Shown: piece after piece, positions 54,605-58,195 of the stretch
How the letters are laid out: the number at the start of each line of letters is the position of its first letter
Position numbering within the stretch: the stretch's first letter is position 1
Source: Mobilibacterium timonense
GTDB lineage: Bacteria > Bacillota > Clostridia > Peptostreptococcales > Anaerovoracaceae
Direction: 5' to 3'
NCBI RefSeq assembly: GCF_900155555.1
Contig: NZ_FUHN01000008.1
Span: forward strand, 318,117-382,116
DNA length: 64,000 nt
Notes under the pieces: generated by a model
Databases searched by the model: none
What the model was told of the DNA's origin: nothing
What the model saw: only the letters and a program-made list of their open reading frames with translations
Made by a program: the position numbers and the translations under genes

Positions 54605-54680
54605 GCGCCAGTAGCTCAGGGGATAGAGTAGCACACTCCGAATGTGAAGGCCGCGAGTTCGAATCTCGCCTGGCGCACCA
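54605..54680 (+). tRNA. tRNA-Arg (anticodon CCG)
   Basis: 76 nt with encoded CCA. Acceptor GCGCCAG pairs with CTGGCGC, D arm GCTC/GAGT, anticodon loop CTCCGAA giving CCG, T arm GCGAG/CTCGC around TTCGAAT. The top pair of the anticodon stem (position 27-43) is a G-A mismatch, the other four pairs are sound. CCG reads CGG codons. Confidence 0.95.
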
Positions 54681-54684
54681 GCTG

Positions 54685-54720
54685 AAAAGCCTGCAAGCTC
54701 AAGGACTTGCAGGCTTTTTC
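54685..54720 (+). terminator. Terminator of tRNA-Arg
   Basis: AAAGCCTGCAAG pairs perfectly with CTTGCAGGCTTTTT around an 8-nt loop, 5 nt after the tRNA. Confidence 0.92.
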
Positions 54721-54745
54721 ATTTGTCTTTCTTAGTTTAGATTTT

Positions 54746-54795
54746 GCCTGTTTTTACCTGTTTTTACCTGTAAAGTGTGGTACTCGGTGTGGTAC
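54746..54795. repeat. Short direct repeats next to tRNA-Arg, possible integration scar
   Basis: CCTGTTTTTA is repeated twice from 54747, then GTGTGGTAC occurs at 54775-54783 and 54787-54795. Such arrays often lie between a tRNA and a tyrosine integrase as arm-type sites, but no integrase reading frame is present here. Confidence 0.4.
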
Positions 54796-54836
54796 TTCGC
54801 AGATCGAAACTTGCATCACATACCATAACAGTTAAG

Positions 54837-55122
54837 TCACTGGAGAAGGTTTTTACTTTCCAATATCGATTCGTATTCTTCTTTTGACAACGGACAGTTC
54901 ACGAGATCCATGAATTGATTCTTCGACAGATTTACTTGCTTTGCCATCATACCGATAAGTGGATCCGATATTTCAGACTTCCCGTGACTGAGCTTCGTCA
55001 TGACTGCAGTCTTTTTCCCGTCACCATTAATATAATGGAAAAAAGTATGATCTCCTTCAGATGCAACAAAGCCTTTTTTTCTGTAAACTGCTCCTTATAC
55101 GAGCTGTCTTAAGGACCGTCAT
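54837..55122 (-). pseudogene. HicA-like toxin gene with a +1 frameshift in a seven-A run
   Basis: The ATG at 55122 overlaps the upstream stop (ATGA). The first frame reads MTVLKTARIRSSLQKK and ends soon after. Removing one base from the run of seven A (minus strand; T at 55074-55080) gives GFVASEGDHTFFHYINGDG, then TAVMTKLSHGKSEISDP, ending ESKNLLQ, a 94-residue protein. The KKGF...GDHTFF pattern with its His resembles HicA-type RNases. Either a decayed gene, a slippery on/off switch, or programmed frameshifting. Confidence 0.65.
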
Positions 55123-55505
55123 CTCGCGCCCCTCACATTCTCAAGCATCCATTTCTTTACCGCTCTCGCGCTTTCAGTCAGATCGCTATCATCCTCCGAA
55201 GTGTAATATTCCCATACATGGCTGAACTGACTTTTCAGATCTTTCAACAATTCGTCGACAGTATCTTCCGCAGATGCTATCACCAGGTCTCCGATATGAT
55301 AATTTGCCACGTAGCAACCATCTTCACAGTGATAACGGATCACCATTCTGCTCTTGAATTCCAGATGTTCATTTATCTGCTTTAATGAAATACAATATTG
55401 TGGCCTGCATTCACTATATTTTCTTCTGACAGACTCTTGCCTGTTGATCGGTACACCGCTGAAATTTCTTCTTGAATGCACTGATCTCATACTAGTCACG
55501 TTCAT
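55119..55505 (-). CDS. Probable antitoxin (HicB-like), middle gene of the cassette
   Basis: 128 residues. The first 50 are basic and of no clear fold. The rest resembles the RNase-H-like fold of HicB antitoxins: FKSRMVIRYHCEDGCYVA, IGDLVIASAEDTVDELLKDL, ending in an amphipathic helix with KKWMLENVRG. No DNA-binding domain is evident. The ATG at 55505 follows GGAGG and overlaps the upstream gene by 14 nt; the downstream HicA-like gene overlaps it by 4 nt. The antitoxin role is inferred from context and fold only. Confidence 0.6.
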   Translation of the reverse strand: MNVTSMRSVHSRRNFSGVPINRQESVRRKYSECRPQYCISLKQINEHLEFKSRMVIRYHCEDGCYVANYHIGDLVIASAEDTVDELLKDLKSQFSHVWEYYTSEDDSDLTESARAVKKWMLENVRGAR

Positions 55506-55818
55506 CCCCGGCCTCCATTTCGGTCACAACATCCTGCAGCCAATTGAGTAGAGCTCTTGCAGTCTCCTGGTTCATCACTACGCCATTTCTGACAGATCGG
55601 ATGAACTTATAGTCCTGAGGGGAAACAACGCTTGATTCACAGGTGCTTCCGTCTTCAGAAAACGTAAGTTCTTCCTCATAAGGTAGCGGAAGTCTCTCCA
55701 GATAAAAATGCATCACAAGTTCTCCGCTGGGATTTATCCCACCATAAAAACCGTTTACGTAATCCGGGTCGTATCTTTTATCAAACAAATACTTAAACCT
55801 GAATTTATTATCTTCCAT
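55492..55818 (-). CDS. Conserved hypothetical protein, first gene of the cassette
   Basis: 108 residues, not assigned. Features: KFRFKYLFDKRYDPDYVNG, then GGINPSGELVMHFYLERLP (beta strands), and a C-terminal helix after NGVVMNQETARALLNWL. Hydrophilic, no signal peptide or membrane helix. GGAGGTG precedes the ATG at 55818. Tight overlap with the antitoxin-like gene argues for a joint function. I recall similar small proteins next to HicA-like genes in other bacteria, but cannot check this here. Confidence 0.6.
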   Translation of the reverse strand: MEDNKFRFKYLFDKRYDPDYVNGFYGGINPSGELVMHFYLERLPLPYEEELTFSEDGSTCESSVVSPQDYKFIRSVRNGVVMNQETARALLNWLQDVVTEMEAGDERD

Positions 55819-55841
55819 ACCGCACCTCCTGCTTAAGAGCT

Positions 55842-55868
55842 GTGTGGTAAGTATAGCATATTTCACAC
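55842..55868 (-). promoter_or_regulatory. Cassette promoter with GTGTG/CACAC inverted repeat
   Basis: TATACT (55850-55855, minus strand) with TG-C before it (extended -10). GTGTG (55842-55846) and CACAC (55864-55868) flank the -10 as a short inverted repeat, a possible autoregulatory operator. Confidence 0.5.
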
Positions 55869-55879
55869 TCATCTTTTTA

Positions 55880-55908
55880 TAAAAGAAATGGCGGTCCGAA
55901 GACCGCCT
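55880..55908 (-). terminator. Terminator of the flavin-binding protein gene
   Basis: GGCGGTC-TTCG-GACCGCC on the minus strand, a perfect stem with a UUCG tetraloop, followed by ATTTCTTTT. It insulates the cassette from upstream transcription. Confidence 0.88.
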
Positions 55909-55918
55909 TACGATATGC

Positions 55919-56422
55919 TCAGTGTGCTTTTCCCGATATGTGCTCCACCGCGATGTCCACCACCTCGACCCTGTCCAGCGGGCCGGCAGCGCATTTTTCA
56001 GCGGCCAGGCGGGCCTCCTGGTCGCCGGGCGCGAGAGCGACGGTGAGGTCAACGAGGAGTTTCCTCTTTTCCTCCTGATCCCGGACCACTGAGGCCTCAC
56101 CAAAGGCTATGGCACTCTCGTAAAATGTGGTGATGTGCGGCCCGTCGACGGAATCGCTTTTTACCACAGTGAATGAGACGCGCGGGCAGCTTGCCAGGTT
56201 GTCCATCTTGTGGCCTTCGGCGGCGCAGTGGAAGTAGATGTGCCCGTTCCTGTAAAAATAGTTTACCGGCACTCCGTAGGGAAAACCGTCCTGGCCGAAG
56301 GTGGACAGGATGCCGTACTTTCCTTCCTTTAATATAGCCTCGGCCTTCTCAGGGCCGATAGCCCGCTCACTGCGCCGGATCTGCCGCCAGGCGCCGTTAT
56401 ATCTCTTGGTATCCTCATTCAT
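55919..56422 (-). CDS. Pyridoxamine 5'-phosphate oxidase family flavoprotein (NimA-like)
   Basis: 167 residues with a split-barrel FMN-binding fold. AEAILKEGKYGILST near 27 and FPYGVPVNYFYRNGHIYFHCA near 46 (in two parts, FPYGVPVNYF and GHIYFHCA) match the NimA/5-nitroimidazole reductase-like branch, and GHKMDNL contacts the cofactor. Substrate unknown. GGAGGTGAAAA precedes the ATG. It lies 81 nt after the beta-helix protein gene. Confidence 0.88.
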   Translation of the reverse strand: MNEDTKRYNGAWRQIRRSERAIGPEKAEAILKEGKYGILSTFGQDGFPYGVPVNYFYRNGHIYFHCAAEGHKMDNLASCPRVSFTVVKSDSVDGPHITTFYESAIAFGEASVVRDQEEKRKLLVDLTVALAPGDQEARLAAEKCAAGPLDRVEVVDIAVEHISGKAH

Positions 56423-56503: not shown

Positions 56504-58195
56504 CTACTCTACCACCGCGCCTCTTTTCTTTCCATCATTTTCGCCCATGGTGGTGGATGTGCCGAAGTATTCGTCAAAGGCGCTTCGGCTCAGGGACTTT
56601 CCACTTGATTTTGCCGAAGACGGCACACTTGCGGTGGTGCTGTATGTACCGCTCACCGTGACTGTGACGCTGCTCTTCCCATTGACTACCGTCTTACCGT
56701 TGGCGACAACGGAAACAGTTTTTCCATTCTCGTCCACCAGCTTTGCGCCGGAGGCCAGGTTCAGGGATGACACGGTGCAGTCGCCCGTGACCACCCACTT
56801 GGATCCCTTTGCCACCGTAACAGACGTGTTTGCCTCTCCGTCGGTCTGGCCGGTCCAGCTGGAGCCCTTGGTCAGGTACAGATCCACGCTGCTTATGCCG
56901 TCGGTGTAGATGTCCCCGGACAGGGTCTCGTCCTTGGCCAGCAGAGACAGGGTCCCGCCGTTGCTGCCGCTGGTCCCCCAGTTGTTGGATGAGTTGCCGG
57001 AGGCGTTCACAAGGTACACGTTGTCGCTGTCAAAGCCCAGCTTCGTGTTCTGGAGTATCACCTTCGCGTCGGTATTGGTCACGTAGAACATGGCTCCACT
57101 GGTGATGCTCGTCCTGAGCGTAGAACCATACGCTTCAAAAACAGATGCCTCGTCGGCGGAGGTATCGGCGTCCCCGGATGTGGACTGGTAAAGGATCACT
57201 CCGTTCTTGATCGGGTCCGAGCCGGAGATCGCGTCGTTGGTGCTGGTGAGAGTCGAGTTCTTGATGAGGATGCGGTTTTTTCCCTCCATGCCGGCGATCT
57301 GGCTGCCGGAGGCCGTTCCCTTGACGTTGTCCACCTCGATGTCTCCCGTAGAGTAGATCAGAGGAGAGCCGGATCCGCGAGTCTTAAGCGTGCTGTTCGT
57401 GACAGAAATGTATCCGCCGCCTCTGTCTGTTGCCAGAGCCGCAGAGTGGTCTCCCTCAGTGCTTACGGTGAGCTTGTTTCCGTAGATGCGGCCACCGTAG
57501 GTGGCGTCCAGGCCCCTGGAATTTCCGCCTGAAGTGGTGGTTATCTTAGTGTTGTTCACGTATACCCTGGCGGAATCCGTGGCGAAGATCCCGTTGGAGC
57601 CGATGCTGGTGCTGTAAATGCCGCTGTTTTTGATATAGAGCTTCGAGCCGCTGCCCGCTGCCAGGACGCTGGAGTTAACGCCGTAGAAATTGCAGTTGTC
57701 TCCGTCTTCATCGGAACCGCTCTTCTTGATCCTCACCCGGTTCAGCTTGAGTGTCCCACCATTCTGTGCCAGGACCGCATTCTGGTCCTTGTCCGATGCG
57801 GTGATCGAAGTGTCTTTCTTAGTGACGGTCTTTCCATCTGCTGTCAGGGCTCCCGTATAGCTTCCGCTGTAGTCGTAGGACTGTGTGTCAGCCCCGCCCG
57901 GGGCGCTGCCGCCCTGGCTCCCGTTTCCCGGACCGCCTGATCCGCCGGGCCCTCCGCCGGCGCCTGAACTTTTTTCCGAAGAACTGCTCGTGGCAGTGAT
58001 GACCTCTGAGGCATCGACCGTGGACGTGCTCGCGTGGTGCAGCTCCTCGATCCGGACGCCATCTCCGTCGCCACCGCTCGCGGTCGAGCTGGCGGAAATG
58101 GCCGCCGTGTCCGTGGCTATCATCGACAGGCAAAGCATGAATATCATGATGCCCGTCAGGATCTTGCTTCGGTATCTGGATAAAATGGAATTCAT
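56504..58195 (-). CDS. Secreted right-handed beta-helix protein
   Basis: 563 residues. Signal peptide (about 1-35, LTGIMIFMLCLSMIATDTAA), Ser/Thr then Gly/Pro-rich linker (GAGGGPGGSGGPGNG), then many short repeats with alternating I/V-x-N-S-x-L/I pattern (ILIKNSTLTSTNDA, LYIKNSGIYSTSIGSNG, VYVNNTKITTTSGG) typical of parallel beta-helix adhesins or polysaccharide-binding proteins. No LPxTG, KTGD or membrane anchor at the C-terminus, so it should be released or bound non-covalently. GGAGGTG precedes the ATG at 58195. It follows bioY on the same strand; no promoter is obvious in 58196-58327. Confidence 0.8.
   Translation of the reverse strand: MNSILSRYRSKILTGIMIFMLCLSMIATDTAAISASSTASGGDGDGVRIEELHHASTSTVDASEVITATSSSSEKSSGAGGGPGGSGGPGNGSQGGSAPGGADTQSYDYSGSYTGALTADGKTVTKKDTSITASDKDQNAVLAQNGGTLKLNRVRIKKSGSDEDGDNCNFYGVNSSVLAAGSGSKLYIKNSGIYSTSIGSNGIFATDSARVYVNNTKITTTSGGNSRGLDATYGGRIYGNKLTVSTEGDHSAALATDRGGGYISVTNSTLKTRGSGSPLIYSTGDIEVDNVKGTASGSQIAGMEGKNRILIKNSTLTSTNDAISGSDPIKNGVILYQSTSGDADTSADEASVFEAYGSTLRTSITSGAMFYVTNTDAKVILQNTKLGFDSDNVYLVNASGNSSNNWGTSGSNGGTLSLLAKDETLSGDIYTDGISSVDLYLTKGSSWTGQTDGEANTSVTVAKGSKWVVTGDCTVSSLNLASGAKLVDENGKTVSVVANGKTVVNGKSSVTVTVSGTYSTTASVPSSAKSSGKSLSRSAFDEYFGTSTTMGENDGKKRGAVVE

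Follow-up and report, generated by a model that had tools for sequence, protein, structure and literature searches.

Organisation of the locus

The window, a stretch of 64,000 nucleotides from Mobilibacterium timonense, carries on its minus strand (55818-54837) a cassette of three genes, here called g1, g2 and g3 in reading order. ORF calling showed that each gene overlaps the next, g1 and g2 by 14 nt and g2 and g3 by 4 nt (ATGA). The features of the cassette and its surroundings are as follows:

55492-55818, minus strand: g1, the first gene, 108 aa; weak DUF3467 match; homologues in the same position at L042, L047 and L115 (L numbers denote loci compared)
55119-55505, minus strand: g2, 128 aa; HicB-like antitoxin candidate with about 50 residues ahead of its HicB-like core
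54837-55122, minus strand: g3, HicA-like toxin gene, out of frame; the ATG at 55122 gives a 21-aa product
55074-55080, minus strand: run of seven A in g3, the site of its frame break
54605-54680, plus strand: tRNA-Arg (CCG), beside the cassette, beyond g3 and on the opposite strand
54684-54719, plus strand: terminator-like hairpin 3' of the tRNA-Arg
55890-55907, minus strand: terminator-like hairpin of the gene upstream, setting that gene apart from the cassette

A first-pass annotation had described three overlapping genes (108 aa, HicB-like and HicA-like) adjoining a tRNA-Arg, and our analysis confirmed the ORFs, the overlaps and the tRNA. It had also proposed that a terminator isolates the cassette; a hairpin (55907-55890, minus strand) does divide the cassette from the upstream gene, although it is that gene's own. 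The promoter with a short inverted repeat that had been suggested was not convincing in either part: scoring of the cassette strand gave no sigma-70-like site ahead of g1, the repeat found there (GTGTG...CACAC) has arms of only 5 nt, and no convincing inverted repeat with arms of at least 6 nt precedes g1. Just past the tRNA-Arg, positions 54742-54796 of the window hold three 10-bp TTTTRCCTGT repeats and two GTGTGGTACT repeats, and a similar AAAGTGTGACACTTGCTGTGCCACTT lies close to the tRNA-Arg of a congener; this is possibly a recombinase attachment region.

A divergent HicA-like toxin gene and its HicB-like partner

Neither Pfam nor NCBIfam gave a curated match for g3, and a PDB sequence search with the HicA-like profile returned nothing meaningful. 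Against PF07927 an intact relative of g3, the L017 protein (57% identical to g3), scored 18.6 bits, short of the curated cut-off of 27. Structure prediction for the L017 protein was confident (pLDDT 91), and the solved structures that best matched this model were 1whz (Z 8.2) and the HicA structures 6g26 (Z 5.6) and 4c26 (Z 3.7), followed in fourth place by 2hjj; both 1whz and 2hjj have been named as structural relatives of HicA (PMC3969222). The model thus has the dsRBD-like fold of HicA, to which it adds two C-terminal helices outside the region alignable to solved HicA domains. In the family alignment one histidine is invariant across the main g3 family, is kept in g3 and lies just before strand 2; the essential histidine of HicA is located just before or at the start of strand 2 (PMC12297915; PMC3969222). 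In a subgroup comprising L044, L045, L047 and L115, the catalytic histidine is not conserved. Judged by the model of its close relative, g3 is a member of a divergent HicA family.

Among 397 other genomes of this phylum, 11 carry a relative of g3; relatives were also found on a Geminocystis plasmid and at 31 bacterial and archaeal loci. HicA-like relatives stand behind HicB-like genes in many phyla, most relatives of g3 being immediately preceded by a gene with a g2-related C-terminal part. A HicB-like partner is adjacent in nearly all HicA-like relatives, its similarity to known HicB being weak: the g2 family profile reached the Thermus structure 2yzt with an E-value of 0.017 and 3k6q with 0.064, and sequence matches to HicB models, like those to HicA models, fall below the curated cut-offs. 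The partner has about 350 aa in most relatives, with the HicB-like part at its end, while g2 of the window, L042, L047 and L115 is short, with about 46-77 residues N-terminal of the core. A segment before the HicB-like core is also present in some relatives that have no g1. Two loci hold more than one pair: L018 (1111-2415) has an ordinary-looking HicA pair directly ahead of a divergent pair, and L019 (2759-4246) has two HicB-like/HicA-like pairs in tandem.

The frame break at seven A residues

The intact toxin frame of a HicAB system is not present in g3, where the frame that starts at the ATG at 55122 is broken at the seven A and gives 21 residues before a stop. Past the run, the conserved HicA-like frame stays open for 81 residues, up to a stop at 54837, and offers no ATG, GTG or TTG start ahead of the catalytic-histidine region. 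The first-pass figure of 94 residues for the full-length form is correct, and its statement that a shift of -1 or +1 restores the frame is half right, since a net +1 (or -2) does so and -1 does not. All invariant and conserved residues downstream of the break survive in g3; the break is thus recent, an error or tolerated, and old decay is argued against.

One explanation is that sequencing or assembly went wrong and that the organism itself carries an intact cassette. The position of the break, exactly in a homopolymer, and the retention of every invariant residue beyond it both favour such an error. On the other hand, 22 informative coding-strand runs of A7-A8 in 460 kb of this genome contained no frame jump, which speaks against an error-ridden assembly, although the sample is small and a single error could still have occurred. 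We regard this explanation as possible but less likely than a recent frameshift mutation.

The first-pass annotation had instead suggested phase variation or programmed slippage. On this reading the run is a functional switch, and changes in its length, or slippage of the polymerase or ribosome, would set toxin output. The frame is indeed otherwise open and conserved, the P-site Lys-tRNA could re-pair after a +1 shift, and an AAGGAG motif 10 nt ahead of the run is the sole feature favouring slippage. A Shine-Dalgarno-like site at such a spacing is, however, known for -1 shifts, whereas +1 or -2 is needed here, which is not the usual direction for an A-run. The codon after the run is AGG, the commonest Arg codon here, the RNA downstream folds no better than shuffled sequences, and a run of seven A is shorter than would be expected of a contingency locus. 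Nor does any relative carry an out-of-frame run: the relatives have in-frame toxin genes, with the exception of two decayed copies (L013, whose frame is likewise broken, and L046, whose gene lacks its front part), and at the same Lys-Lys-Gly site both L027 and L028 carry a run of seven A that is in frame. We also note that AAAAAAAGG is present six times in other open genes. A switch is therefore very improbable and we reject it.

The break in g3 is most likely the result of ordinary decay or a sequencing slip, and g3 most likely makes no active toxin here. Because the toxin frame is broken, this copy of the cassette probably survives as an antitoxin remnant. The break itself matters little, broken toxin copies being found in relatives too, and a single genome with a break in a homopolymer is no basis for proposing a switch.

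The extra first gene

Against DUF3467 (PF11950), g1 scored 17.6 bits, where the curated cut-off is 25. Its homologues are sub-threshold as well, with 11 of the 25 g1-family members matching at an E-value of 0.1 or better, and on these profile matches we consider g1 to be distantly related to DUF3467. Other searches were less productive. The structural model of g1 was poor (pLDDT 52) and a fold search with it gave noise only, a PDB sequence search with the g1 profile returned nothing meaningful, and PADLOC and NCBIfam gave nothing convincing. A scan of the genome collection with g1 alone found nothing because its relatives are distant. No SecB match was found among the 25 family members, and hhalign against SecB gave a probability of 0.1.

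The first-pass annotation had held that the extra gene sets the locus apart from two-gene hicAB and had proposed looking for the three-gene order elsewhere. This distinction is real: three other genomes share the order g1-hicB-hicA, namely a Methanomassiliicoccaceae archaeon (L042), a Deltaproteobacteria MAG (L047) and a genome of the same phylum as the latter (L115), each with its g1 homologue immediately ahead of the HicB-like and HicA-like genes. It could be argued that g1 lies outside the system, as a general DUF3467-like gene that chances to precede hicBA-like genes, given that members of its family are also found elsewhere, ahead of MiaB-like genes for instance, and that most HicA-like relatives have no g1 beside them. 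We find this unlikely, as the tight same-strand order is common to four distant genomes from two domains, and a relative that is 40% identical to g1 (L106) stands first in a different toxin cassette, whose third gene encodes a PemK/MazF toxin (E 7e-10). The g1 of the window is 36-38% identical to its hicBA-linked homologues in L042 and L047, about as close as it is to L106, and the closest relative of g3 has no g1, so these modules have been reshuffled.

At L101 and L102, true DUF3467 genes stand first in small cassettes that also hold PBECR2 RNase-like and DUF2283 genes (1381-2358 and 1480-2433, respectively); the PBECR2 frame in L101 looks broken. g1 looks like a portable third component. 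More tentatively, g1-type proteins might exert portable control over unrelated pairs, HicA-like, MazF/PemK-like and, via DUF3467, PBECR2, perhaps by acting on the N-terminal tail of the antitoxin; such a system would be tripartite and analogous to TAC (toxin-antitoxin-chaperone) systems, with a partner other than SecB.

Elsewhere among the loci compared, several genomes (L113-L120) have a g1-family gene immediately ahead of a MiaB-like gene, which suggests a wider cellular role for the family. At L109, L110, L118 and L121, g1-family genes head three-gene cassettes whose other genes (142 aa and 77 aa; 185 aa and 150 aa) have no Pfam matches and are possibly new toxin-antitoxin pairs.

Origin of the cassette

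The GC content of the cassette is 42%, compared with 54% for the window, and its codon scores are low. A search of 98 related genomes did not recover g3, nor was g1 found in 390 genomes of the class. In a genome of the same genus, the site between the tRNA-Arg and a BioY-like gene has neither the cassette nor the next two genes. The simplest reading is that the cassette was gained horizontally beside the tRNA, although the congener may instead have lost it. The window contains no duplicate of the tRNA 3' end such as would mark the border of an element. Scans of IMG/VR with g1, g2 and g3 found no true relative; the single match to g2 (L015) is antisense to a large gene and was dismissed as chance.

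The two genes that are also missing from the congener site lie between the cassette and the BioY-like gene of the window, and encode a pyridoxamine-oxidase-like protein (55919-56422) and a repeat-like protein of 563 aa rich in Ser, Gly and Thr (56504-58195). Unlike the cassette, they have a host-like GC content.

Proposed working of the cassette

Taken together, we favour, with a probability of about 0.68, the reading that the three genes form a toxin-antitoxin cassette of divergent HicAB type that was acquired horizontally and in which g3 is, or was, a HicA-like toxin with presumed RNase activity, g2 is its putative HicB-like antitoxin, g1 is a DUF3467-related third protein, and the break in the frame of g3 reflects a recent mutation or, with lower probability, a sequencing error. 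Set against this are the HicA and HicB matches, which stay below curated cut-offs, the weak likeness of g2 to HicB, the survival of every invariant residue past the break, unexpected after old decay, and the unconserved histidine of the L044/L045/L047/L115 subgroup. If the genes work as in HicAB, the product of g3 would cut mRNA, and that of g2 would bind the toxin and block it. Because g2 has no recognised DNA-binding domain, g1 may supply repression of the operon; alternatively, it may support the N-terminal segment of the antitoxin, much as SecB-like proteins do for C-terminal segments in TAC. g1, which accompanies such cassettes, probably has one of these two roles, and it is mostly g1 that gives the cassette its interest.

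Comparison with known systems

The cassette resembles type II HicAB (PF07927; 1whz, 6g26, 4c26) in its HicA-type fold, in the histidine before strand 2 and in having a small, weakly HicB-like candidate partner in the same operon. It differs in that its sequence falls below the PF07927 cut-off, the fold carries a C-terminal two-helix extension, the antitoxin gene comes first with the extra g1 ahead of it, and the toxin frame is broken here. The DUF3467 (PF11950) genes heading the PBECR2-DUF2283 cassettes of L101 and L102 offer a second parallel, with weak but repeated profile matches and a DUF3467 gene standing first in a small, toxin-like three-gene cassette; the g1 matches, however, are below the curated cut-off and alignable mainly over the C-terminal helix, and both toxin and gene order are different.

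In the literature on HicAB with a third gene, or on DUF3467, we found nothing on this arrangement except TAC, which includes a HicAB-type TAC (PMC5105189). Like TAC, the cassette has three genes, its proposed third component is linked to several toxin-antitoxin families, and its candidate antitoxin has what may be an equivalent extra tail. In TAC, SecB-like proteins support C-terminal segments of the antitoxin (PMC5105189), whereas g1 shows no relationship to SecB, stands first in the cassette and accompanies an extra antitoxin segment that is N-terminal. Should g1 serve several unrelated toxin-antitoxin families as a dedicated partner, this would give a role to the uncharacterised but widespread DUF3467-related family, and would constitute a second kind of tripartite control beside the SecB-type TAC systems.
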